Source: an uncultured Lentisphaeraceae bacterium
GTDB taxonomy: Bacteria; Verrucomicrobiota; Kiritimatiellia; RFP12; DVOR01
Length of the DNA: 64,000 nt
Direction of reading: 5' to 3'
Assembly: GCA_949289005.1 (NCBI GenBank)
Contig: CASEMQ010000001.1
Coordinates: 1 to 64,000 of the forward strand
Part shown: positions 13,803 through 59,604 of the stretch, one piece after another
Layout of the letters: each line of letters begins with the position of its first letter
How positions within the stretch are numbered: the stretch's first letter is position 1
Notes under the pieces: generated by a model
What the model saw: only the letters and a program-made list of their open reading frames with translations
What the model was told of the DNA's origin: nothing
Database searches by the model: none
Translations under genes and position numbers: made by a program

Positions 13803-14411
13803 TCAGCCCTTGTTCGCGTTGTCCTCCTCCCCAAGCGCCCACTCCGCCCGCGCCTTGGCGAAGGCCCGCGCGCGATGCGACAGGCGCGCCTTCGTCTCCG
13901 CCGGCAACTCCCCAAAGGTCTTCGCCTCCCCCTCCGGCACGAACAGCGGGTCATAGCCAAAGCCCCCCGCCCCGCGCGCCGCCTCCACGATCCGCCCCCG
14001 GCACTCCCCGCGCAACGTCCGCGTCGCCTCCCCCGGCACCGCCAACGCCAACGCGCACACAAACCGCGCCCCGCGCCCCGCCGCGGGCACCCCCGCCAGC
14101 TCGCGCAGCAACTTCGCGTTGTTCGCCGCCGTGTCCCCATGCGCCCCCGCGTAACGCGCGCTGCGCACCCCCGGCGCCCCGCCAAGCGCCTCCACCTCCA
14201 GCCCCGAATCGTCCGCCAACGTCGGCAGCCCCGTGGCATCGCGCCACGCCTCGGCCTTGATGGCCGCGTTGGCCTCAAAGGTCGCGCCCGTCTCCTCCGG
14301 GTCCGGCACGCCCGGCCACCCCTCCGTGCCCACGATCTCCACCCCCGGGAGCAAGCCCCGGATCTCGTCCAGCTTGTGCGCGTTGCGCGTGGCGATGAGG
14401 AGCCGCCTCAC
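13803..14411 (-). CDS. rdgB: dITP/XTP pyrophosphatase (HAM1/RdgB family)
   Basis: A 202-residue protein hydrolysing non-canonical purine nucleoside triphosphates to keep inosine and xanthosine out of DNA. Recognised by the substrate-loop motif TRNAHKLDEI at the N-terminus, LADDSGLEVEALGG, and GFGYDPLF. The GTG at 14411 is the start: it gives the normal family N-terminus (VRRLLIATRN) and overlaps the gltX stop as GTGA. Longer in-frame starts inside gltX add only low-complexity sequence. Confidence 0.95.
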   Translation of the reverse strand: MRRLLIATRNAHKLDEIRGLLPGVEIVGTEGWPGVPDPEETGATFEANAAIKAEAWRDATGLPTLADDSGLEVEALGGAPGVRSARYAGAHGDTAANNAKLLRELAGVPAAGRGARFVCALALAVPGEATRTLRGECRGRIVEAARGAGGFGYDPLFVPEGEAKTFGELPAETKARLSHRARAFAKARAEWALGEEDNANKG

Positions 14412-15733
14412 AGCGCCCCCTCGCGCAATTTGGCCGCCACCGCGCGCAACCGCCCCACCGCGCGCCCCTGCCCCAACAGCCACAACATCTCAAAAAGCCC
14501 CGGCCCCTCCATCCGCCCCGACACCGCCACCCGGATGGGATGCACCAGCGCCCCGAGCCCCACGCCACGCGCCTCCGCCAAGCCGCGCACCGCCCCCTCC
14601 GCCGCCGCCGCCGTGAAGTCCGGCAACGCCTCCAGCGCCCCCGCCGCCGCCTCCAACGTCTCCGCCGCGCCCTCCGCGTGAAGCCGCTTCGCCACCGCCT
14701 TCCCGTCGAACGGATAATCCTCCGCGAAAAACCACCGGCAATTCCCCGGCACGTCCCCGTACGTCTTCGTGCGCGGCTGGATCTCGTCGAGCAACGCCCC
14801 CCGATGCCCGTTCAACGGCTCCGTCGGCAACCCCGCCGCGCGCAACCGCGCGTCAAACGCCGCCTCGAACTCACCCCGCGGCTCGCGCGCGATGTACTCG
14901 CCATTCATCCACGTCAGCTTCTTGATGTCAAACCGCGCCGGGCTCGCCTTGCACTTGGCAAAGTCAAACGCCTCCACCATCTCCGCGCGCGACATCACCT
15001 CACGGTCGTCCCCCGGCGCCCACCCCAGCAACGCCAGATAATTGAACAATGCATCCGGCACAAACCCCAGCTCGCGAAACTCCCCCACAAACGCCGAGCC
15101 GTCACGCTTGGAATAAGGCTTGCCCCCGTTGTTCACGATCATCGGCAAATGCGCATACCGCGGCACCGGCGCCCCGATCGCCCGGAACAGCATGATATGC
15201 TTGAACGTGTTCTCCACATGATCGTCCCCCCGGATGATATGCGTCACCCCCTGCGTGACGTCATCCAGCACATTCGCCAAATGGAACACCGGCGACCCAT
15301 CCGACCGCACAATCACGAAATCCTGCGTGTCCTTCGCCTGCTTCTTCATGTGCCCCTTCACCAAATCGTCAAACTCGATGACCCCCTCCCTCGGCATCCG
15401 GAAAATCACGCACTCCCCCTGCCCACCCTTGTTCTCACGATACGCCAACCCCCGGCGCAACAAATCCTCCGCCACCTCCAAATGATGCGCCCGCTGGCTC
15501 GTCTGATAAAGGATCTCCCCGTCCCAATCCAGCCGCAGCCACCTCATGCAATCCAACAACGCCCGAATCGCCTCCGGCGTCGACCGCTCCAGATCCGTGT
15601 CCTCCACGCGCAACAAAAACGCCCCGCCCACGTGCCGCGCGAACAGCCAATTGAAAATCGCCGCACGAATGTTCCCAATATGCACCTTGCCCGTCGGCGA
15701 CGGCGCAAACCGAACGCGAATCCGCTCTGCCAT
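14408..15733 (-). CDS. gltX: Glutamyl-tRNA synthetase
   Basis: A 441-residue class I aminoacyl-tRNA synthetase that charges tRNA-Glu. The HIGH-type signature is PSPTGKVHIG at residues 10-19, and the KMSKS-type loop reads KPYSKRDGS near residue 207. RVEDTDLERS and IIRGDDHVENT are family hallmarks. Start 15733 has a GAGGAAGG site. The C-terminal anticodon-binding part is a little shorter than in the E. coli enzyme (about 470 residues). Head of the gltX-rdgB-secreted-protein operon, with its own extended -10 promoter. Confidence 0.97.
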   Translation of the reverse strand: MAERIRVRFAPSPTGKVHIGNIRAAIFNWLFARHVGGAFLLRVEDTDLERSTPEAIRALLDCMRWLRLDWDGEILYQTSQRAHHLEVAEDLLRRGLAYRENKGGQGECVIFRMPREGVIEFDDLVKGHMKKQAKDTQDFVIVRSDGSPVFHLANVLDDVTQGVTHIIRGDDHVENTFKHIMLFRAIGAPVPRYAHLPMIVNNGGKPYSKRDGSAFVGEFRELGFVPDALFNYLALLGWAPGDDREVMSRAEMVEAFDFAKCKASPARFDIKKLTWMNGEYIAREPRGEFEAAFDARLRAAGLPTEPLNGHRGALLDEIQPRTKTYGDVPGNCRWFFAEDYPFDGKAVAKRLHAEGAAETLEAAAGALEALPDFTAAAAEGAVRGLAEARGVGLGALVHPIRVAVSGRMEGPGLFEMLWLLGQGRAVGRLRAVAAKLREGAL

Positions 15734-15872: not shown

Positions 15873-16511
15873 CTACCAAAGCAGATGCACCAACTCGTCC
15901 AACAACGCCTGCTTCTGATCACGATTAAGGTTCGTGTAGACAGAATAAACCAATCCATCCCTGTCCTTGACGCGCCACACAAACTTGGCAGGAACCTTAC
16001 ACCCCCGCGATACCCAAAGAATCCGCGCCCGCTTGTTGCCAAACAGCCCCTGTTTCTCGCAAAGGTCGCAAACCCTGCGCAACCCGATATGCGTCAAAAG
16101 ATTGCACATCTGCTCATTTTGCGACTTGCCAACCCCCGCCAGCTTCCCCAACCACAAATTAGCCGGCGCCTTCTCGCACGCCACGACCGCCCCTGGGAGC
16201 ACATGGATGGCTCCGACCTCCCATTTCCCATCCTCTTCCGGGGGCTGTGGCAAGGAGGACGTCGCAGCCGGTTCCGACAGCGGCGGCTTCTCATTCCCCT
16301 CATTTCCCAACAAAACGCTACATTCACGTGCCACCGCCCCCAACGTAACGGAAAGATTGCTCAACCGCCGATGTCGATCCTCCACACGATGCAACTCCAA
16401 CGAGCCCGACTTCCCATGAGCCTTCAACTTAGCCATACATACAGACAGTTCGCCCAGCTCGTCTTTGATTTGCCGCAGCAGCTCCTCAAAAAAGGTCTCA
16501 CAGTCCAACAT
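15873..16511 (-). CDS. Unknown protein, last gene of helicase operon
   Basis: A 212-residue protein I cannot assign. Residues 1-70 form a predicted helical segment (MLDCETFFEELLRQIKDELG); residues 75-95 are an acidic proline-rich linker; residues of about 97-212 form a compact domain containing CDLCEKQG (one CxxC) and ending in DELVHLLW. No membrane segment. An AAGGAG site stands about eight bases before the ATG, and the start overlaps the DUF4391-like gene by 14 bases, so it belongs to the same operon. It is less GC-rich than gltX, which fits an acquired unit. Confidence 0.75.
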   Translation of the reverse strand: MLDCETFFEELLRQIKDELGELSVCMAKLKAHGKSGSLELHRVEDRHRRLSNLSVTLGAVARECSVLLGNEGNEKPPLSEPAATSSLPQPPEEDGKWEVGAIHVLPGAVVACEKAPANLWLGKLAGVGKSQNEQMCNLLTHIGLRRVCDLCEKQGLFGNKRARILWVSRGCKVPAKFVWRVKDRDGLVYSVYTNLNRDQKQALLDELVHLLW

Positions 16512-17238
16512 TGTCTGTCTCCTTGTCCAAGTTTACGTTCGCGTTGCCGTTGGCCATTTCCTTCCGTAATTCGGCCTTGGCAACGACAAGATGACGCAAT
16601 TCCGCCTCAATCTCACGCCGCGCGGCATCCGCATGGACGTAACCGAGTTGCGCATTCAGCGCGGCACGGCGTTCGCGTATTTCATCAAGGCGTTCTTCGC
16701 GGTGAAGGGCGGAAAAAGCGGCATGGGCCCATCCGAGCGCGGTCGTGGCGGCAAGACCGGTGTCCGTCCAAAAGACGGGAAGCGTGGAGACGATGCCATT
16801 GTGCGCGGTGAGGGCACCCACCGTTACCTTGGGGCCATCCTTTTCGGGGAGGATGAGCGCGGGGCGGATCTCGGTGCAATACCCCATCGGATGAATGAAA
16901 GCGACCGCCACGGGGTTAAGTCGCAGGGCATGACCCAACCAAGTTGCCACGCGGCGGATTTGCGCCGTATCCTTCAATGGGGCATCCCACGCTACCTCCA
17001 CCACCTCCACGCCGCGAACCTTCCCATCTGCCGCATAGCGGGCATGAAGCGTCTCATCCAATCGCGTTTGGCAAACGACGCGTCGGATGGAGGCACTATC
17101 CGTCTTGTCGAGTGCGGATGCGCCACGCCGCTCGGCCGCCTCGGCGAGCGCTTTCTTGGGCAACCACACCGGCGCGGGTGCCTTGTCCACCACGCTCAGC
17201 CAGGCAATATGCAAAGGTTTCGTGCCCATCGGGTTCAT
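16498..17238 (-). CDS. DUF4391-like protein of the helicase operon
   Basis: A 246-residue soluble protein. The N-terminal PVWLPKKALAEAA, the central VEVVEVAWDAPLKD followed by a PVAVAFIHPMGY strand, and the C-terminal charged coiled coil (EERLDEIRERRAALNAQLGY and onward) give the layout of DUF4391 proteins, which accompany SNF2-type helicases and DNA methyltransferases in restriction or defence loci. The assignment is by pattern only. The ATG at 17238 overlaps the upstream stop (ATGA); an ATG at 17229 has better spacing from GGAAGG and may be the real start. Confidence 0.65.
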   Translation of the reverse strand: MNPMGTKPLHIAWLSVVDKAPAPVWLPKKALAEAAERRGASALDKTDSASIRRVVCQTRLDETLHARYAADGKVRGVEVVEVAWDAPLKDTAQIRRVATWLGHALRLNPVAVAFIHPMGYCTEIRPALILPEKDGPKVTVGALTAHNGIVSTLPVFWTDTGLAATTALGWAHAAFSALHREERLDEIRERRAALNAQLGYVHADAARREIEAELRHLVVAKAELRKEMANGNANVNLDKETDNVGL

Positions 17239-17906
17239 CCTTCCGACAAATCCGGCAACCCGGAGAAAAGTCCACCGTCATCCACTCCGTCCGATGCGAG
17301 CGCCTCGTCGTCTTTCGACATCTGGGGCAATGGGCAGACGGACGTGCCAGGCGCAGGCGTAACCTGCGGTTCGTCCAAGTGCACCCAGGGTAAGAACAGC
17401 CGGGTGGCGTCCCCCTGTGCCTCAATCAATCGGTCAAAGTCTATGGAGACATCTTCCTTGTTTTGGGCGACAAATGCCAAAATAGTCTTCTGGCAATTGC
17501 CGTTGTGCTCGATCATTTCCTTATAGAGGCGATTGCGCAGATGTTCGATAGCATTCAGCAAATAAAGTTCACGGGCCAGGATGGCATCGTCGTCCGACCG
17601 TTTTTCACGGCAACGTTGCACAAATGTTCTTTTGTCCCTCCACGCTTTGGGGAGCCCCCAACTTTGCGCCTCTTTGAGAAGTTCGCCGGTTAGGGTGAAG
17701 GAACCGATATTGGGAAGCGCGTCATATTCCGCCCGAAATCGGGATTCCCGTGGCAAAACATTCTCGTAGGGCAGATAGTCAACACCGTTGAGAGCTTGTT
17801 TGCACCAATGCTCGCATCCGGACGACTTGCGGCGCAGGAGATACAGATAATCCTCTACGTGCCAAATGGGCAAGCCCCGTGACTTATCCTGATCGTGTTC
17901 GCACAT
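17235..17906 (-). CDS. Unknown protein of the helicase operon
   Basis: A 223-residue soluble protein beginning MCEHDQDKSRGLPIWHVEDY. I do not recognise a family. The middle (about residues 85-150) is helical and charged (KRTFVQRCREKRSDDDAILA, ELYLLNAIEHLRNRLYKEMI); the C-terminus is acidic and disordered-looking. Nine bases after the helicase stop and overlapping the DUF4391-like start, so clearly co-transcribed. Its conserved company, not its own sequence, suggests a role in the helicase system. Confidence 0.75.
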   Translation of the reverse strand: MCEHDQDKSRGLPIWHVEDYLYLLRRKSSGCEHWCKQALNGVDYLPYENVLPRESRFRAEYDALPNIGSFTLTGELLKEAQSWGLPKAWRDKRTFVQRCREKRSDDDAILARELYLLNAIEHLRNRLYKEMIEHNGNCQKTILAFVAQNKEDVSIDFDRLIEAQGDATRLFLPWVHLDEPQVTPAPGTSVCPLPQMSKDDEALASDGVDDGGLFSGLPDLSEG

Positions 17907-17915
17907 GGCATTCTC

Positions 17916-20900
17916 TTACTCAGACTTGTTTTGGGGAAGAATGAGGGCGAAGGTAAGGAGGGTGAGGGCGGCGAGGTCATCGGTGAGGCCGGTATGGAAG
18001 TCAAAGGGAATGTCGCCGAGGAGAAGGCGGACACGATTGGTTTCGCGGACGATGCGCAAGAGTGCGAGCGCGCCCCTAAGAGGATTGGTGAAGGCGGTTG
18101 CGGGACGTTTGACGAGCCAGGCATCAAGTTTGAGAACGGTTTCGTCGCGGTCTCGGCAAAGGGCTCGGAGCAGGGCAAGGGCACGTTCGGGCGGCAACGG
18201 CACAAGTACACCCGGAGCGGCCCCGTCGTCCGCGGGGGTGAAATCTGCGGCCGGGGCGGTGAGGGGGCACCCCTCGGCGTCGACGGCCAAGAGGAAACAA
18301 TCGCCAAGGGGATTCGTCGCGCGTTCGGCGGCATCCATCCCGGCGCGGCGCAAGAGGAAGAGGACACCGCCCTTTGATGGTAGCGGGGGGAGGGGCTCGC
18401 CGACGAAAGCGTCGGTGAGTTCGCCCGGGGTAACGGCGCAGAGGCCAAGGGGCGCGGCGGCGCAACGTTTGGCGTTGTTCCCGACTTGGAGCCAGGCATC
18501 AAGGTCGCCAAGGAAGTCATCGAAAACCACGTTGCGCCCACCGCCAACGAACGTATCAAGGTCGAGACGGCCTCGCTGGATGGACAAAAGCTGTTGCTGA
18601 CGGTAGGCAAGGTCTTGCTGTGTTTCGGTGGAAAGCGTTCCCGCACCCGCGGCGGCGGTGGCGGCAACGGCGTTTTTCATGCGCACACGCCGCTCCAAGC
18701 CAATATAGCCATCCAGTTGCGCGCACGGCCAAAAGAGAAGCGCGCGAACGTGGGCATTGGGCGAGCCGATACGATCGACACGACCAATCCGTTGCACCAG
18801 GCGCAGGGGATTCCAGTGAATGTCGTAGTTCACGACGAAGTCGCAATCCTGCAGGTTCTGGCCCTCGGAGAGGCAATCCGTGGCGACAACCCAGTCGATG
18901 GGCTCAAGCCGTACGCGTTCCGCCTCGGGCACCTCTTGGCCACCGGGCGCAAAACGCCGCAACACCGCGCTCATGGACGCACCCGTGGCACGGCCATCCC
19001 GCCAGACACGACAATCGGAACCCGTGACGCAAGCGATGGCGCGATTGGGGAAGCGTCGCGCCAAGGCCTCGGCCACGTAGTCGGCAGTGTCGGCAAAAGC
19101 AGTGAAAATGAGCGCCTTCGCGTTGCCGGGATTGATTGGCCGACGGCACTTGGTCTCCAGCGCGGCACCAAGCGCCTGCAACTTGGCGTCGCGCACGGAC
19201 GTGACGGCTTGGGCACGGGCAAGCAACTTCTCGGCAATGTCCAGATCCGCCTTCAGAGCCCTGCGCAAAGCCTTCACGTCAAACCATTCCCGTGCGACGA
19301 GCGTGACCTCCTTGGCAAGGCGTTCGGAGACCTCACCCTCCTCCTCGCCCAAGGCATCGCCATCGGGCACGCCGGCGGCGGTGCGTGCCAAGGCGTCCGC
19401 GTTTTCCGCGCCCAAGAGATCCCTCGCCGTGGAAAGCGGCACACGCACACGCCCCAAATCCAAATCCCGCAATTGTGCGCGCGTACGGGCAATCAACACC
19501 TCCTCCAACGTCTTGCGGAAGGAGGCAATGGAACTCTCCAAGCGCTTGAGCAAATTGATGCGCATGAGTGCGGCAAGCGAACGCTGGCGATGCTCAGCGT
19601 TGAATGCGCCTTTATTGACCCATTCGACGCCGGGGCGCAAAAATGCCTCGTCAGTGGGCGTGTAGGAGGCCAAAGTAAGGTCAAGCAGGCGCTCGCTGAG
19701 CATATCCACGTCAAGGTCGCCATTCGCCGTGTCGAGCCCTGGCCGGGCCTCCGCAAAGTCGCACTGCGGCATACGTAAGGCTTCGGCGATGGAAGCGTAG
19801 AATTGACGAATGCCGGCGCGGCTGCGGGCGATGGTGGTGCGCGTGAGCAACTTGAAGTAACCCTCGCCCAAAAGCCCGGCCATCGTGGCGGCGGAGAAGG
19901 TCGCAGGGTCGTCCGCGTGCGCCTTCACATAGTCCCGCACGCGCCTCTGGGCCGCGTTGATGGGCGCCACGACGGCGCGGCGAAAATCGCGGCTCGGCAC
20001 GTTCGGATCCTCCCGCCGGATCAACGCCAACTGCCCCGTGAGGTCGGCAAGCCTGTTGCTGACAGGCGTGGCCGTAAGCAAAAGCAAATGCGTGGAAGAA
20101 CGTGCCTTCAGATGATTGAGAAGAAAAGAATAACGCTTGCCGCCAGGATTGCGGAAGTTATGGCTCTCATCGATTACAATGAGACTGAAGCCCCTCGGCC
20201 AGAAACGCTCAGCCTCGACCTCCCCATGCCCTGTGTCAAATCGTTTCCGCCCCAGGTCGGTGTGATTGAGCACGTGATAGTAAAAATCCGGCCGCCCGTT
20301 CACGTCTGTGAAAGCGTTGGCTTCGTCCCGCAAAAAACGCATCCAATTGGAACGGAGTTTTTTTGGGCAAAGCACCAAAATGCGCCCCCTCCCCATGCGC
20401 TCGTAGGCCTTGACGACGGCCAGCGCCGTGTAGGTCTTGCCCAGGCCCACGCTGTCGGCCAAAATGCATCCGCCATCCGTTTTGAGTTTACGAAGGATGG
20501 CCATCGCGCCATGCCGCTGAAAAGGATAGAGCGACTTCCAAATCGGGGTTTCGCCCAAACTTACGTCCCCGGAAAACGCACTGCGCCACTCGGGGAGGCG
20601 GTCGCGGAAGAGATGCCAGAGGGTGAGATAGTAGAGGAAGCGCGGGGCGACGGGGCGGTAGGCGTCAAGCCGGTCGCGCAGGGCTTGCTTGCAGTCCTGC
20701 CCCTGCGCCCAAAGGCGCTCGAAGACGGCGACGAGCGCGTCGCGGCTGGCGGCGTCGGGCGCGAAGAGCCCGGCCTCGGCCATCGGGCGGGTGGGGTCAA
20801 GGCACTCGCGCGTCAGCTCCGGGTTGCCCACCACGAGCGCGCCGCCCACCCAAGCCATCCCGGGGAGCGAGGCATCCGCCCGCACCGTGCGCACTTCGAT

Positions 20901-21263
20901 GGTCTCCGCGCCCAACCAACGCCGCACGCGTTGCGCCTCCGCCCCCTGCGCCAGCTGATTGTCCAGCACCAGCTCCGCGGGCGTGGTGTCCAGGAGCGTG
21001 TAGCGCAACGGCCCGGGCGCCCCCTTGGGCAACGCCCGCACCGGCAACAAAACCCGCACCCGCGCCGGCCTCGGGAAGCGCTCCCGCAGGAGCCCCAGGC
21101 CGCCCAACGTCAGCCGCGGCACCAAGAAGGCCACATCGTCGGGCGGCACGGCATCCGCCGCGCCGCCGAGCCAATGCGCAAACGTGCGCGGCGACGCGCC
21201 GTCAATCCACGACGAGGCATTGCCCCCCCCCCGTAGCCGAGGCGGGGACGGCGACGCCTGCAC
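17916..21263 (-). CDS. SNF2-type DEAD/DEAH helicase with PLD-like N-terminal region
   Basis: About 1,115 residues. Residues of about 45-185 look like a phospholipase-D-like region in which the HxK motif is not seen. The helicase core follows: Walker A DSVGLGKTYTA (about residue 270), Walker B VIDESHNFRN, motif III LTATP, and in the second lobe DCLSEGQNLQDCD and the arginine-finger motif QRIGRVDRIGS. This is a SNF2/HepA-type DNA-dependent ATPase. The in-frame start used is a GTG at 21263 without a ribosome site. A better ATG at 21288 is out of frame by one base; adding one G to the ten-G run at 21223-21232 joins it. First gene of a four-gene operon that I infer to be a defence system. Confidence 0.85.
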   Translation of the reverse strand: MQASPSPPRLRGGGNASSWIDGASPRTFAHWLGGAADAVPPDDVAFLVPRLTLGGLGLLRERFPRPARVRVLLPVRALPKGAPGPLRYTLLDTTPAELVLDNQLAQGAEAQRVRRWLGAETIEVRTVRADASLPGMAWVGGALVVGNPELTRECLDPTRPMAEAGLFAPDAASRDALVAVFERLWAQGQDCKQALRDRLDAYRPVAPRFLYYLTLWHLFRDRLPEWRSAFSGDVSLGETPIWKSLYPFQRHGAMAILRKLKTDGGCILADSVGLGKTYTALAVVKAYERMGRGRILVLCPKKLRSNWMRFLRDEANAFTDVNGRPDFYYHVLNHTDLGRKRFDTGHGEVEAERFWPRGFSLIVIDESHNFRNPGGKRYSFLLNHLKARSSTHLLLLTATPVSNRLADLTGQLALIRREDPNVPSRDFRRAVVAPINAAQRRVRDYVKAHADDPATFSAATMAGLLGEGYFKLLTRTTIARSRAGIRQFYASIAEALRMPQCDFAEARPGLDTANGDLDVDMLSERLLDLTLASYTPTDEAFLRPGVEWVNKGAFNAEHRQRSLAALMRINLLKRLESSIASFRKTLEEVLIARTRAQLRDLDLGRVRVPLSTARDLLGAENADALARTAAGVPDGDALGEEEGEVSERLAKEVTLVAREWFDVKALRRALKADLDIAEKLLARAQAVTSVRDAKLQALGAALETKCRRPINPGNAKALIFTAFADTADYVAEALARRFPNRAIACVTGSDCRVWRDGRATGASMSAVLRRFAPGGQEVPEAERVRLEPIDWVVATDCLSEGQNLQDCDFVVNYDIHWNPLRLVQRIGRVDRIGSPNAHVRALLFWPCAQLDGYIGLERRVRMKNAVAATAAAGAGTLSTETQQDLAYRQQQLLSIQRGRLDLDTFVGGGRNVVFDDFLGDLDAWLQVGNNAKRCAAAPLGLCAVTPGELTDAFVGEPLPPLPSKGGVLFLLRRAGMDAAERATNPLGDCFLLAVDAEGCPLTAPAADFTPADDGAAPGVLVPLPPERALALLRALCRDRDETVLKLDAWLVKRPATAFTNPLRGALALLRIVRETNRVRLLLGDIPFDFHTGLTDDLAALTLLTFALILPQNKSE
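21223..21232 (-). repeat. Ten-base G tract inside the start of the helicase gene
   Basis: Ten consecutive C on the plus strand (G on the coding strand), about 55 bases after the ATG at 21288. With eleven G the ATG frame runs straight into the helicase; with ten it does not. A candidate slippage site, or a miscounted homopolymer. Confidence 0.7.
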
Positions 21264-21294
21264 CCACGTTTTGCCGCATTCCGTTCATCGTGGC

Positions 21295-21597: not shown

Positions 21598-24500
21598 TTA
21601 CTTGAGGATCATCCAGAAGCGGGAGTCGGAGCGGTAGAGGTAGAGGCCGTCGGTCTTCTGGCGGAGGGTGAAGGAGCCCTCGACGGGGTTGCCCTCGGGG
21701 TCGACGACGGTGACGGTGCCGTTGATCTTGCCGCCGCCGGCGAGACCTTCCCAGCCGATGATCTTGACGTTGGAGGCGGTGGCGTCGGGCTCGATCTCGA
21801 CGGTGACGTCGATCATGACCTCCTCGGCGTCGCCGGTGACCATGGGCAGGCTGAGGGTCTTGGTCTCGACGCAGGAGACCCACGGGGCGCCCTGGAGGTC
21901 CTTGCGCACGAGCACGCGGAGTTTGGTGGCGGGCTCGAGGCGGAGGGTGTCGGCCACGGTGAGGGTGGTGGGGATTGTCTCCTCGCGGTAGGTGCCGTTG
22001 GCCTGCTCGCGGCGGCCGTAGGCGGCGGCGGAGAGCGTGGCGCCGGCGGGGATGCGGATGGTGCGGCCTTCGGCGCCGAGGGTGCCGGAGCCGGCCAGCT
22101 CGCCGCCGTCGGTGTCCACCGCGATGTCGCCGGACCAGATGCCGTTGACCTCCACGCGGGTGTTCCGGCCGACGGTGAGGGCGCCGAGGTGGGCGTCGGT
22201 GGAGGCGCCGGAGTAGACGAAGCGCGGCTTGGCGGCGGCATCGTCGGGGGTGGCGCTGAGGACGGTGAGGCCGGCGCGGATCTCGCGGCCCTCAGGGGAG
22301 AGGGCGCCCATGAAGGAGCCGGCGAAGGTGCGCGAGGCCTCGTCCAAGGCCGGGTCGAGGGTGAGGGTGACGACGCGGTTCGTGGCCCAGACGGGGTTGG
22401 CGAAGGTGTCGATGGCGGGCTCGACGCCGATGATGCCGCCGTGCGCGGCGTCGGCCGAGAGGCCGGCGAGGGCGAAGACGGAGCCGCCGTCGGTGTTGTT
22501 GCCCAGCCAGAGGGCCTCGGTCTCGGTGGCGCCCTGCTCCAACGCCAGGGTGGCGGAGGCGTGGAGGATGCCGGGGTCGAGGATCAGGTGGCCCTGGGCG
22601 GAGTCATAGCGCACATGGGCGACGCCGAGGGGCGCGCCGTCGGCGGTGGCCAGGCGCGGGGCGCGGCTGGTCTCGGAGGAGGTCTCGCCCTGCCAGAGGA
22701 AGGTGCCCGCGGGCGTCTCGCCGGGATTGACGTCGAGGGAGACCGCGCCGCCGGCGGAGAGCGCGCCGGAGTAGCCCAGGATGGTGCCCTCGGCGAGGGT
22801 GATCTCGGGGAGGACGGCGTAGTGCTCGTCGGCGGCGAGGTAGGCGGTGCCGTTCTCGACGCGGAGGGCCTTGATGGCGTCAAGCGCGGCGCCGAGGGTG
22901 AGGGTACCGGTGCCGGACTGGGCGATGACGCCGGTGCCGTCGCCTTCCAGACGGCCCAGGAGGTTGCGGTTGGCCGAGCCGGTGAAGCGCAGGGTGGCGT
23001 CGCCGGCGAGGGTGACAGGCACGGTGAAGTTGCCGGAGTCCGCGCGCAGGGTGGCGCCGATGACGGTCTCGCCGCCGAGCAGGCGGATGACGCCCTCCGC
23101 GCCGAAGGAGAGGATGCGCGAGACGGTGAGCGTGGCGTCGCCGGTCTTCAGGAAGTCGCCGCGGATGCTGAGGGCGTTGGAGCCGCCGCCCGAGGCGGTG
23201 AGCGTGTAGTCGTGGCTCAGCTCGGTGTCGCCGTCGGCGGGGAGGGCGTTGTCGCAGCGGAAGGCCGAGAGGGTCTGCCCGGCGAGCGTCCAGTCGATCG
23301 TGCGGGCCTCGGCGGGGATTTCGAGGCTGGCGTCGATCGGGTCGCGGTCCTGGAGGACGACGGCGGGGGTGCCCTCCTCGGGCCAAGGCTCGCGGGCGGT
23401 GCCGCCGTTGGCGACCCAGGCGGTGTTGGCCCAGTTGCCGGCGCCGGTGTCGGCGTCGGTGCCGGCCCAGGTGTAGAAGTTGCCGTTGCCGAAGGCGCGC
23501 AGGACGACGGAGTCGCCCGCGTCGTGGAGCGTCCAGCCGCGCTGGGAGAGGGCGACGAGCTTCTCGCCGGCCAGGGTGAAGGTGCCGGAGCCGAGACGGA
23601 CGCCGGAGGCGAAGGTGACGAGCTGGTAGCTGGAGTTGCCGGCGGCGGCGAGGGCGTCGAGATCCACCTTGTCGAGGTTGATGCGGACGGTGCCTTCCAC
23701 GGTGGTGTTGCTGTTGAAGGTGAGGGTGCCGATCTGGCCGCCGTTGCCCAGGGCGATGACGGCGCCATCCTCGAGGCGGGTCACGCCGCGCATGCCCACG
23801 ATGCTGCCGCCGACGTCGAGCGTGGCGCCCTCGCGGAGGGTGAAGGTGCCGTTGCCGAAGTCGTGCGTGCCGGTGGAGGTGACGTTGAAGGCCAGGGTGG
23901 CGCCGGGCATCACCGTCCAGTCGGGGATGGTGGCGCCGTCGTTGAGGTCGGTCGCCGCGATGGCGCCGGTGATGGAGACGGTGCCCTCGGTGAGGGTGAA
24001 GGGCAGGTTGAGGCCGTATTCGCCCGCGATCTGCAGGGTGCCCGCGCCCAGCTTCTCCAGGCCGCCTGCGGTGACGTTGCCGGGCGTCTGGGTGAAGCCG
24101 AGGAAGGCGAGGGTGGTGTTGGCCGGCACGTCAAAGGAGGTGTAGCCGTCCACGTAGGCTTGGTTGGTGCCGAAGGTGACCATCTGCGGCTCGTCGGGGT
24201 TGTCGCCCGAGCGGACAACCTGGATGGCGCCGCGGACGCGGGCGTTCTGCGAGGTGGCGACCACGGCGGCGTTGCCGGCCGCCTCGGTGGCGGCGGAGAG
24301 GCGCCAGACCCAGTTGGTGGCCCAGCCGATGGCGTTGGTGGTGCTCAGCTCCAGGCGGCCGCCCAGGCCCACCTCGGCCACGCGCCGGGTGGCGGGGTCG
24401 TAGGAGGATTCGGGGATCGCGCCGGCGAGGGTCAGCGTCGCGCCGTCGGAGACGCGGTAGGAGAGGCCGCTGTCGGCGGTGCCCTCGAGGCGGACGTTGG

Positions 24501-55576: not shown

Positions 55577-57640
55577 ATGGGTGCAGGTGCGACACAAACG
55601 GCGCGGTCAAACGCCGATGACGATTGCAAAAAGATGCGGGGCAACGCGTCCCGCGCATGGGAGGCTTCGCCTTTGCCGTTCGCGGAAGACGATTGGCGGC
55701 AGGATGCGAACGACTTGGAGCCGCTCCACATCAACAACCGACGCTACCTGGGAAACAAATACAAGTTGCTGGATGCAATACGGGCGATTGTGCGGGAGCA
55801 TTGCCCAGGGGCGGAATCCTTCGCGGATATTTTCGCGGGGACGGGGGCGGTGGCCTCAGCCTTCACGGATATGCGGCTAACAGTGAACGATTTACTCCAT
55901 TGCAACACGGTTTGCCACGAGGCATGGTTCTCGGGCGAGGCGTGGTCGCGCGACAAGGTGGCGGCACTCGTTCGGCGCTACAACGCCTGGACGCCGACCG
56001 AAGAGAATTACGTGAGCGAAAACTTCGCCGACACCTACTTCTCGCGTTCGGTCTGCCGCAAAATCGGGGCCATCCGCGAGGACATCGAGGTGCGCTTCGC
56101 AACCGGCGAGATCAACCGACGCGAGCGCGCGTTGCTTGTCGCCTCGTTGCTCTACGCGATGGATCGCATCGCGAACACGTGCGGGCACTATGATGCCTTC
56201 CGAAAAACGGCCGATTTCCGGGGCGAGTTGCGCCTGCGTCTGCCTAACCCGCCGCCCGTGCGGCCGGACAACACAATCGTCTCGGAAGATGCCAACACAC
56301 TGGCCAAGCGATTGGTGGCGGACATCGTTTTCATGGACCCACCCTACAATTCGCGACAATACTCCGATGCCTACCACGTCTTGGAAAATATCGCGCGATG
56401 GGAGAAACCCCCGGTAGAGGGCGTGGCGCGCAAGATGGATCGCTCGGCGCTGAAAAGCGATTACTGCACAGGCAAGGCGCCCCAAGCCTTCGCCGAGCTG
56501 GTGCGATCGCTCCGGGCGAAATACCTGATCCTGACCTACAACAACATGGGCGAAAAGGGAAACGTTCGCTCGAACGCGAAGTTGAGCGACGAAGCCATCC
56601 TCGCCGCGCTGCGCCAAAAAGGCGACGTGCAAATCTTCAACATCGCCCACAAAGCCTTCTCCGCCGGCAAATCCTCGCATGCCGACAACGCCGAGCGCAT
56701 CTTCCTCTGCACCTGTCATCACGAGCCTCTTGTGGCCTCGCCGCTGAACTACACCGGCGGAAAGTTCCGCATCCTGCCGCAACTGTCGCCGCATTTCCCC
56801 ACGCGGTGCCGCACATTCGTGGATCTCTTTTGCGGCGGCTTCAACGTGGGGGCAAACATGGTAGCCGAACGCGTGATTGGCCGCGATGCCTGTGTGCCGT
56901 TGATTGACCTCCTGAAAACCCTGCAAACCACGCCCGAGGAAAACTTTGTGCAAATGTTGCGCGAACTGTTGGCGTGGTTCGGCTTTTCCGACAGCGCGAC
57001 GAGGGGTTACGCGGCCTATGGGTGCGATTCGAACACGGGGCTTGGCACGTTCAACCAAACGCCCTATTCACGCTTGCGCACCCACTATGCCACGTTGCAA
57101 GAGGGAACGCCGGACAAGGCAATCGCGCTCTACGCGCTCATCGTCCATGCCTTCAACAACCAAATCCGCTTCAACGCGCAGGGCGCTTTCAACCTGCCGG
57201 TCGGCAAACGCGACTTCAACGCGTGCATGGAGCGCAAATTGCGTGCGTTCATCCGCCGCTTGCACGAACGCGCCTTCACGTTCGAGGCCGGCGACTTCCG
57301 AGGCTTCGACCTATCGCCCCTGGGCATCGGCGACTTCGTCTACGCCGACCCGCCCTACCTGGTGACCACGGCTTCGTACAACGAAAACGGAGGGTGGACA
57401 ACACGCGACGAGACCGATCTCCTGGCGTTGCTGGAGCGGTTGCATGCGCAAGGATGCCGCTTCGCGCTCTCCAACGTGACCGAGGCCAACAACCGGCGCA
57501 ACGATTTGCTTTGCGACTGGCTGACGCGCCATGCCGACACGTTGCGCGTGGTGGAAATCGCACGCGACTACTCCAACGCCAACTACCGCCGCAAAGCCGC
57601 CAACGACGCGCGCGAAGTGCTCATCCTAAACAAGGTTTGA
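55577..57640 (+). CDS. Fused double adenine-N6 DNA methyltransferase (type IIS modification)
   Basis: A 687-residue fusion of two D12-class adenine methyltransferases. The N-terminal unit has RRYLGNKYKLLDAI, SAM motif ADIFAGTGAVASAF and catalytic DPPYNSRQYSDAYH (about residue 253). The C-terminal unit has YTGGKFRILPQL, FVDLFCGGFNVGAN and catalytic YADPPYLVTTASY (about residue 590). Two fused units, one per strand, are the arrangement of FokI-type type IIS systems, where the site is asymmetric. The ATG at 55577 follows the -10 directly; an ATG at 55634 is an alternative. The endonuclease gene follows after 11 bases. Confidence 0.9.
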   Translation: MGAGATQTARSNADDDCKKMRGNASRAWEASPLPFAEDDWRQDANDLEPLHINNRRYLGNKYKLLDAIRAIVREHCPGAESFADIFAGTGAVASAFTDMRLTVNDLLHCNTVCHEAWFSGEAWSRDKVAALVRRYNAWTPTEENYVSENFADTYFSRSVCRKIGAIREDIEVRFATGEINRRERALLVASLLYAMDRIANTCGHYDAFRKTADFRGELRLRLPNPPPVRPDNTIVSEDANTLAKRLVADIVFMDPPYNSRQYSDAYHVLENIARWEKPPVEGVARKMDRSALKSDYCTGKAPQAFAELVRSLRAKYLILTYNNMGEKGNVRSNAKLSDEAILAALRQKGDVQIFNIAHKAFSAGKSSHADNAERIFLCTCHHEPLVASPLNYTGGKFRILPQLSPHFPTRCRTFVDLFCGGFNVGANMVAERVIGRDACVPLIDLLKTLQTTPEENFVQMLRELLAWFGFSDSATRGYAAYGCDSNTGLGTFNQTPYSRLRTHYATLQEGTPDKAIALYALIVHAFNNQIRFNAQGAFNLPVGKRDFNACMERKLRAFIRRLHERAFTFEAGDFRGFDLSPLGIGDFVYADPPYLVTTASYNENGGWTTRDETDLLALLERLHAQGCRFALSNVTEANNRRNDLLCDWLTRHADTLRVVEIARDYSNANYRRKAANDAREVLILNKV

Positions 57641-57651
57641 TTGAGAAAGCC

Positions 57652-59604
57652 ATGGCCTCATATAAAAGTTTTTGTTGGAACATGGGGACGACCAGCCTGC
57701 GGTGGAAGGAAATGGCCTGCGCCATCGAACGGCAACTCTTGCTCTTGAATGCCTTCTGGTCCATGCCGGAAAACCAGGGCAGGGAATGGCAGGCCAACCC
57801 CGCGTTGCAGGAACATTTTTACGGTTACCTGAAGGCGCACGGCTTCCTATCCGGAAACGCAGGAAATCCTGCGAAAGATGCTCGTCAGAAGACATCCGGG
57901 CTTTGCGAACTCGGTTTGATCGATGACAACCGCCGCCTGACGCCCGCCGGCGAGACGCTCCTGAAGGTCGCACAAAGTGGGGACTTCGCGTCGGACGGCA
58001 ACCTGCTGGATCTCTCGCGCGACGCGTGGATTTACTTCCTGCAACTGCTCAAATGCTCAAAGCGCAAAAGCAAAGACTGGTGCGTCCGCCCCTACGTGCT
58101 GTTGTTGCACGTGCTCAACACCGTGGGAGAAGTTTCGTGGGATGTGTTCGCGCGCCTCCTCCCGCTTTGCGTAAACCGCGAAATCACCGCGCGCATCGTC
58201 GCCCGGCTAACCTCCGGGCAAGCGATTGACGTGGCGGAAACGGTCGATGCCATCCTTGCGGATCTGGAAGGATTGCGCGAGGCACGCGAGACATTCGTCA
58301 ATGCGCGCACAATCGACACGCATACCATCTTGCAAGCGGGACTCAATCGTGATGGATCCACATACGATGCGTCTTATCTCGCCGTCTATGAAACGTTATG
58401 GGCGCTCGTTCATGCCCGGGCGAACGACACGCAAGCGATCAAAAGCTTTGACCGCGCTCTCGGCCACTGCAGATTAAAGAACTATTGGCGCGAGTACTTC
58501 TTCGCGGATGGCAAACGGTTGCGACGCGAACGTCCAATCTTCGGAGCACAGGACGAGCGCGTTTTTCGCAATGCCTTTTTCACGCTCTTGCACCGCTTCA
58601 AGGCCTTCGCGTTGTTGGACGATTATGCCGACCTCAACCGCCGCTATTTCGGGTTGAGCGACACGGTGCGGTTCAGCGAGGGAAAGGTGCGCCTGACGCC
58701 GCTTGCGGCCTCCTTCGCCAATGCCATCGCCCCATGGTTGGAAACACATGCCTGGAGCGCCTGCGCCGCATTGCCCCAGACTTGTCCTCTCGAAACCATC
58801 CTGAAAGGCCAATCGATTCCCGGCCAAGACACACTCTTTCGCGCCGCGACGGGGCGTACCCGCGAGGCCATCGAAGCGGAGGGCGGTCTGGAAGCCGTCC
58901 TCCGAAAAACACGCGCCGAAGCCTTCATCGCGCGCATCGACCGTTCCTTCCCACGCGAAGCGGTGATTGAACTCCTGGCCCTGCTCGAAAACCGAGCGAA
59001 CGACGCGGAAGTGCGTCGACGCGTCTCAAAGGAAGCCGATGTGCCGACAATCTTCGAATATCTCTTGGCCATCGCCTGGTATTACGTAAGCGAACGCCGG
59101 GGCGACATCCTGGATTATGTGGGCGTTTCGCTCGATGCGGACTTCCTGCCAAAAACGCATGCCGGCGGAGGGCGGGCGGACATCGTCTGGCAATATGCCG
59201 CGCTTCCGCCCCACTACCCCGCTCACACGCTCTTGCTCGAGGGCACGCTCGCCGAGCGTGACACCCAACGGCGCATGGAAATGGAGCCGGTCTCCCGCCA
59301 TCTTGGCGACTATCTGCTGACCCACCCGGGCGCCACCGCTTATGCACTCTTTGTCGCGACGACGCTTCACCCAAACGTCGTCTCCGATTTCCGCAGCCGA
59401 AAAGATTATCAATACTACAACGCGGATGGGACGCAAAGCATCGTGGGCATGAAAATCATCCCGCTCGACACCGCCATGCTCCGCGCCATCCTCGAGCGCC
59501 ATCTCCCCTACACCACGCTCCATCCGCTCTTCGACGCCCACTTCCATGCCCCGGATGCACCGCCCGCGTGGCTTGCCGCACTCCGCGCCAAACTCTCAGA
59601 CTAA
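57652..59604 (+). CDS. AlwI-family type IIS restriction endonuclease
   Basis: A 650-residue protein. The N-terminal WNMGTTSLRWKE and the C-terminal nuclease signature (GGGRADIVW near residue 507, then LLLEGTLAERD near 530, then RRMEMEPVSRHLGDYL) match the AlwI/MlyI type IIS family, with a PD-(D/E)xK-like core. The middle contains winged-helix-like DNA recognition segments. It should cut at a fixed distance from an asymmetric site; the site cannot be read from sequence. It appears less GC-rich than housekeeping neighbours, as expected for a transferred restriction unit. No controller gene is seen. Confidence 0.85.
   Translation: MASYKSFCWNMGTTSLRWKEMACAIERQLLLLNAFWSMPENQGREWQANPALQEHFYGYLKAHGFLSGNAGNPAKDARQKTSGLCELGLIDDNRRLTPAGETLLKVAQSGDFASDGNLLDLSRDAWIYFLQLLKCSKRKSKDWCVRPYVLLLHVLNTVGEVSWDVFARLLPLCVNREITARIVARLTSGQAIDVAETVDAILADLEGLREARETFVNARTIDTHTILQAGLNRDGSTYDASYLAVYETLWALVHARANDTQAIKSFDRALGHCRLKNYWREYFFADGKRLRRERPIFGAQDERVFRNAFFTLLHRFKAFALLDDYADLNRRYFGLSDTVRFSEGKVRLTPLAASFANAIAPWLETHAWSACAALPQTCPLETILKGQSIPGQDTLFRAATGRTREAIEAEGGLEAVLRKTRAEAFIARIDRSFPREAVIELLALLENRANDAEVRRRVSKEADVPTIFEYLLAIAWYYVSERRGDILDYVGVSLDADFLPKTHAGGGRADIVWQYAALPPHYPAHTLLLEGTLAERDTQRRMEMEPVSRHLGDYLLTHPGATAYALFVATTLHPNVVSDFRSRKDYQYYNADGTQSIVGMKIIPLDTAMLRAILERHLPYTTLHPLFDAHFHAPDAPPAWLAALRAKLSD

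Follow-up and report, generated by a model that had tools for sequence, protein, structure and literature searches.

The genes at positions 15873–21288 of the window (the whole 64,000-nucleotide stretch of DNA from an uncultured Lentisphaeraceae bacterium that was analyzed here) likely represent an accessory module of a type III restriction–modification (R-M) operon of the SNF2/DUF4391 type, one that has been orphaned and can probably be switched by phase variation. In type III enzymes, the Mod and Res proteins provide recognition, methylation, and cleavage. The locus is real and defence-related; it represents a variation on an operon type already known, and not a complete new defence system. 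An orphan-looking locus is thereby tied to a very widespread, functionally unexplained type III helper module (SNF2 plus DUF4391).

Gene Content and Surroundings of the Cassette

The four open reading frames of the original prediction were all recovered, with lengths of 1115, 223, 246, and 212 aa (Table 1). A gap of 9 nt separates the SNF2 and 223-aa genes, whereas overlaps of 4 nt (223-aa/DUF4391) and 14 nt (DUF4391/212-aa) join the others. The SNF2, 223-aa, and DUF4391 genes were found together again in four other genomes, all of the same genus, so that chance grouping is excluded; neighborhood conservation, proposed earlier as a check on the four-gene set, does not extend to the 212-aa gene. 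The site upstream of the gltX-like gene varies among genomes of the genus, and no clean empty site was found at the gltX-adjacent position, where the genomes read carry different genes.

Table 1. Coordinates of the cassette genes and associated features in the window.
Feature	Position	Strand	Remarks
gltX-like gene	14408-15733	-	Conserved flank
212-aa orphan ORF	15873-16511	-	Occupies the place of mod-res; outside the conserved cassette
Divergent DUF4391 protein gene	16498-17238	-	246 aa
223-aa protein gene	17235-17906	-	Mostly helical, disordered tail
SNF2-type helicase gene	17916-21263	-	1115 aa from GTG start
10-G run (coding strand)	21223-21232	-	About 18 codons past ATG 21288; candidate phase-variation tract
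ATG, probable helicase start in ON phase	21286-21288	-	By analogy with relatives' ATG upstream of the tract (in frame in L017)

Two other features of the window were recorded. Directly upstream of the cassette, positions 21598–48090 (- strand) hold a giant open reading frame for a secreted-type protein of approximately 8830 aa. At 55634–59604 (+ strand) lies a type II R-M pair that consists of a fused methyltransferase of 668 aa (PADLOC, 1.6e-189) and a restriction enzyme of 640 aa (PADLOC, 1.2e-28).

The largest gene of the cassette encodes an SNF2-type helicase, as predicted, with Pfam matches to SNF2-rel_dom (5e-17), Helicase_C (2e-12), and also ResIII, and with intact ATPase motifs I (DSVGLGKT), II (DESH), III (TATP), V, and VI (QRIGRVDR). 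Its best PADLOC match, C3a139 “HKD+Snf2” (E 4e-54), covers residues 179–895, that is, the helicase part only. The PLD-like N-terminus that had also been predicted is present, though in a degenerate form with PGMAW where HKD-intact homologues have HGKLY, and without HxK. Decay of the helicase was rejected because its open reading frame is intact and constrained (dN ~0.36 versus dS 1.0–1.5); this constraint is an average that includes the period preceding the probable loss of mod and res, and it is compatible with both a relic and a new use.

None of the three smaller proteins gave anything significant in Pfam, PADLOC, or NCBIfam scans. Among 388 genomes of the phylum, five contain the 223-aa family, each time with SNF2 and DUF4391 on either side; it is restricted to the genus and to the SNF2–DUF4391 cassette, which bears out the earlier suggestion that this protein is specific to the locus. 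Its structure model is helical (pLDDT 61.5) and had no match with E <0.001 in the PDB.

The DUF4391-like identity proposed for the 246-aa protein found support in profile–profile comparison and none from the Pfam DUF4391 HMM, which gave no match to it. A profile built from this protein and its genus relatives matched a DUF4391-protein profile, which includes a protein matching PF14335 at 1e-61, with 89.7% probability (E 1.9e-6) over 206 columns. A gene of this type therefore lies downstream of the helicase gene in the operon, adjoining it save for the 223-aa gene. A search of the DUF4391 profile against the PDB returned nothing below E 0.2.

Complete Operons in Related Genomes

Four genomes of the same genus (G001, G003, G005, and G006) encode SNF2, the small protein, DUF4391, Mod, and Res as one operon, and in a second copy in G006 the small gene is missing, and SNF2 and DUF4391 are followed by Mod and Res. 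Type III Mod and Res are thus the next genes in all five loci of these relatives. They were identified as PADLOC MTase_III (1e-191) and REase_III (2.5e-238), with Pfam matches to N6_N4_Mtase, ResIII, and RE_endonuc, and their motifs DPPY, TGTGKT, and PD..ETK are intact.

Similar arrangements were found in a sample of 80 loci with SNF2 homologues from many phyla, in which Mod and Res were scored within the fetched DNA. Mod and/or Res lie beside the SNF2 homologue in 61 of these loci, and in those of the 61 that were aligned, a DUF4391-type gene sits between SNF2 and Mod/Res. The order helicase-related gene, DUF4391, (cargo), Mod, and type III Res or DEAD/DEAH helicase is annotated in Escherichia coli H6, NCTC9022, and 0H26 and on two plasmids, one from E. 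coli and one from Acinetobacter. The usual operon is therefore SNF2–DUF4391–Mod–Res, a type III R-M arrangement of many phyla including E. coli. A helicase-like ATPase has been described 5′ of type III mod in more than 500 genomes, where its role is unexplained and it is not needed for methylation or cleavage (PMC8259958); this ATPase is likely of the same family as the SNF2 protein of the window. The assignment of the helicase and the DUF4391 protein to a defence operon type thus held, while the proposal of an undescribed four-gene defence unit did not, since the usual operon is known and the 212-aa gene is absent from it elsewhere.

Nuclease Motif of the Helicase and Presence of Mod and Res

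Absence of HxK was scored by residue pattern in an alignment of the SNF2 homologues. An intact HKD (HGKLYH..GSSNFT) was identified in 11 of the 80 homologues, and Mod and Res are absent from the fetched DNA at all 11 loci (downstream sequence >4 kb in eight and ~2.4–2.7 kb in three). HxK is absent from the other 69, 61 of which have Mod and/or Res; among the eight HxK-less loci without Mod/Res, six extend <1.2 kb downstream, and the other two (L071 and L046) are orphan-like. The former, from Actinobaculum sp. oral taxon 183, contains an SNF2–DUF4391 pair with Mod and Res absent within 7.7 kb downstream. Wherever Mod or Res adjoin in this sample of loci, the helicase lacks the nuclease motif in its N-terminus.

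Phylogenetic analysis placed the sampled HKD-intact homologues (n = 6) in one separate group and the SNF2 protein of the window within the clade of its genus (support 100/100). Because it has PGMAW in place of HxK, the helicase of the window belongs with the Mod/Res-associated, nuclease-dead kind.

Absence of mod and res From the Window

Searches of the 64-kb window gave no match beyond noise for Mod and a single noise-level match for Res (E 0.03), inside the helicase gene. The Res proteins of the relatives had no match in the whole 2.36-Mb assembly of the window's genome (a draft, 94% complete), and the DNA beside the 212-aa gene showed no remnant of either mod or res. The cassette of the window thus has no beta-class N6/N4 methyltransferase, and neither window nor assembly yielded a match to the cassette's Res, with its SF2 helicase and PD-(D/E)XK domains. 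The earlier statement that no methyltransferase or nuclease is present is correct for this locus. Their absence here looks like a loss and not a defining feature: loss in the window lineage is favored by parsimony because the genus clade that includes the window copy has Mod and Res in its five other copies, although the assignment to a branch rests on parsimony, with a weakly supported sister (80/35) inside that clade. The draft state of the genome also counts against the orphan status of the module.

The 212-aa protein has a distant relative in one other genome of 59 (G015; 31% identity), at an unrelated locus near a phage-like polyvalent protein and without a helicase; searches of viral contigs, plasmids, and phages returned no match to it. 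Its structure model (pLDDT 47.7) is too poor for use. The suggestion that it is a dedicated partner was not confirmed, as it occurs with the cassette genes in no other genome.

We consider it quite unlikely that the four genes form a complete defence system, with a helicase that needs neither methylase nor nuclease and with the 212-aa and 223-aa proteins as its dedicated partners. The tight spacing with overlaps, the intact ATPase motifs, the purifying selection on SNF2, and the type II R-M pair that the window also contains would all agree with such a system, but the 212-aa gene accompanies the others nowhere else, four relatives of the genus have Mod and Res in its place, and scans of Pfam, PADLOC, and NCBIfam found no nuclease or toxin domain in any of the three small proteins. 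An orphaned module accounts less readily for two observations: the trio is intact and conserved, and may have a use without Mod and Res, and the 212-aa gene overlaps the DUF4391 gene as if coupled to it.

The trio might instead work in trans with another type III-like Mod/Res pair. The genome contains three other long N6/N4 methyltransferase genes (contigs C40, C44, and C47), each beside a helicase/Res-like gene. These methyltransferases, however, are 25–31% identical to the Mod of the cassette and have partners of their own, and we know of no case of an SNF2–DUF4391 pair acting in trans, which makes this explanation very unlikely.

A Poly-G Tract Early in the Helicase Gene

The helicase gene had been predicted to begin at 21288, but the reading frame of this ATG, which runs into the 10-G tract, stops after 28 codons. 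With 10 G, ATG 21288 is out of frame and GTG 21263 is in the helicase frame. All six copies of the genus have a G tract at this position, with 10 G in the window, 8 in L015, 10 in L016, 9 in L017, and 11 in both L018 and L019; each length is one consensus per genome. The tract puts the upstream ATG out of frame in five of the six copies, the exception being L017 (from G005), in which SNF2 and res carry one in-frame TAG each although the tract is in frame. The peptides encoded before the tract differ between copies (MNGMRQ..., MNANQ..., and MSDGHLQNLIT), whereas the frame after it is kept (WIDGA.PRT..). Changes in the segment after the tract fall mainly at third codon positions of the helicase frame (e.g., 13/12/34), indicating that this segment is translated.

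The locus therefore combines a conserved repeat tract with differing length and a change of frame. Because five out-of-frame copies in six are not unusual for random lengths, the argument for phase variation comes from the conserved position of the tract. On this sequence evidence, the helicase is probably expressed in a phase-variable manner through slippage in the G tract. This suggests that a Kiritimatiellota genus would switch the helper helicase, not the methylase, by poly-G slippage; our literature search found no paper joining Kiritimatiellota with phase variation.

It is unlikely that the G run is no switch, the helicase being always expressed from GTG 21263 or the tract length being an assembly error. 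With 10 G in the tract, this GTG could indeed serve as the start of the helicase, and runs of at least 8 G exist elsewhere in the genome. Nevertheless, the position of the tract is the same in all copies despite the differing start peptides that flank it, and in the relatives the only start upstream of the tract that opens into the helicase frame is the ATG of L017. Moreover, 215 kb of DNA from the genus contains one other run of at least 8 G, and this lies within the start of another restriction gene: an 11-G run in the window's genome (C47:30557-30567; L109:10558-10568) within the coding sequence of a ResIII-type gene, toward its 5′ end. This gene adjoins a type III methyltransferase, and the run is out of frame with the ATG of the ResIII-type gene.

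Two further observations concern poly-G sequences of the genus. The cassette copies L018 and L019, both from G006, have diverged, and their helicase start regions, including the 11-G tract, are nearly identical, which suggests recombination between copies. A pattern with poly-G in the -35/-10 spacer (TTGAC-N-G8+-N-TATNNT) had 57 matches among those listed, in 17 genomes of the genus, and its reversed control had none. In G015 (loci L211–L225), 11 of 15 inspected spacer sites precede, by 1–62 nt, genes whose small secreted products end in a PEP-CTERM signal (VPEPTALALLALGVAGLALRRRAA); the PEP-CTERM proteins behind these poly-G promoters are candidate phase-variable surface proteins.

Proposed Mechanism

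In complete copies of the operon, Mod would methylate host DNA and, together with Res, would recognize and cut unmethylated DNA. For the SNF2 protein, the most likely role is that of a nuclease-dead, ATP-driven double-stranded DNA translocase that assists Mod and Res, with DUF4391 as a putative adaptor. Both proteins, here together with the 223-aa protein, probably help Mod–Res to pass or strip bound proteins, or license cleavage. Slippage of the G tract just past the start codon would shift the upstream ATG into or out of frame. In the lineage of the window, mod and res appear to have been lost, as opposed to being ancestrally absent, and an unrelated 212-aa gene has come to stand in their place. 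With this loss, the unit of the window would have no recognized domain by which to methylate or cut DNA, and it may be a relic that has persisted for a while, or else a module with a new use. Quite improbable, in our judgment, is a phase-switched, methylation-independent unit for defence or DNA remodeling, which would combine the nuclease-dead SNF2 protein, DUF4391, and the genus-specific partner without Mod and Res, and in which the 212-aa protein would be a new effector.

Comparison With Known Systems

The SNF2 core of the helicase resembles that of DISARM DrmD, with an NCBIfam score of 146.6 bits against a curated cut-off of 610 bits; DISARM was rejected on this score and because no other DISARM gene was seen around the helicase. 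BREX was likewise rejected, BrxH giving only a weaker match to the helicase core. The PADLOC type C3a139 is similar in the helicase part, but the match omits the HKD part, and this type needs the intact HxK that PGMAW replaces here.

The closest resemblance is to type III R-M systems that have an additional helicase-like ATPase 5′ of mod (PMC8259958) and to the E. coli operons, which similarly encode an SNF2/SF2 helicase without a nuclease motif and have DUF4391 beside it, in the same order upstream of mod, with cargo genes possible inside. Unlike these operons, the cassette of the window lacks mod and res, includes the genus-specific 223-aa gene, and carries a G tract in the initial part of the helicase gene. 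A repeat tract in the initial part of the gene is also found in phase-variable type III mod genes (phasevarions; PMC3874151; PMC2667262). The tract of phasevarions is in mod, whereas that of the window is in the accessory helicase gene; in both, it lies in the start of a gene of the type III R-M kind.
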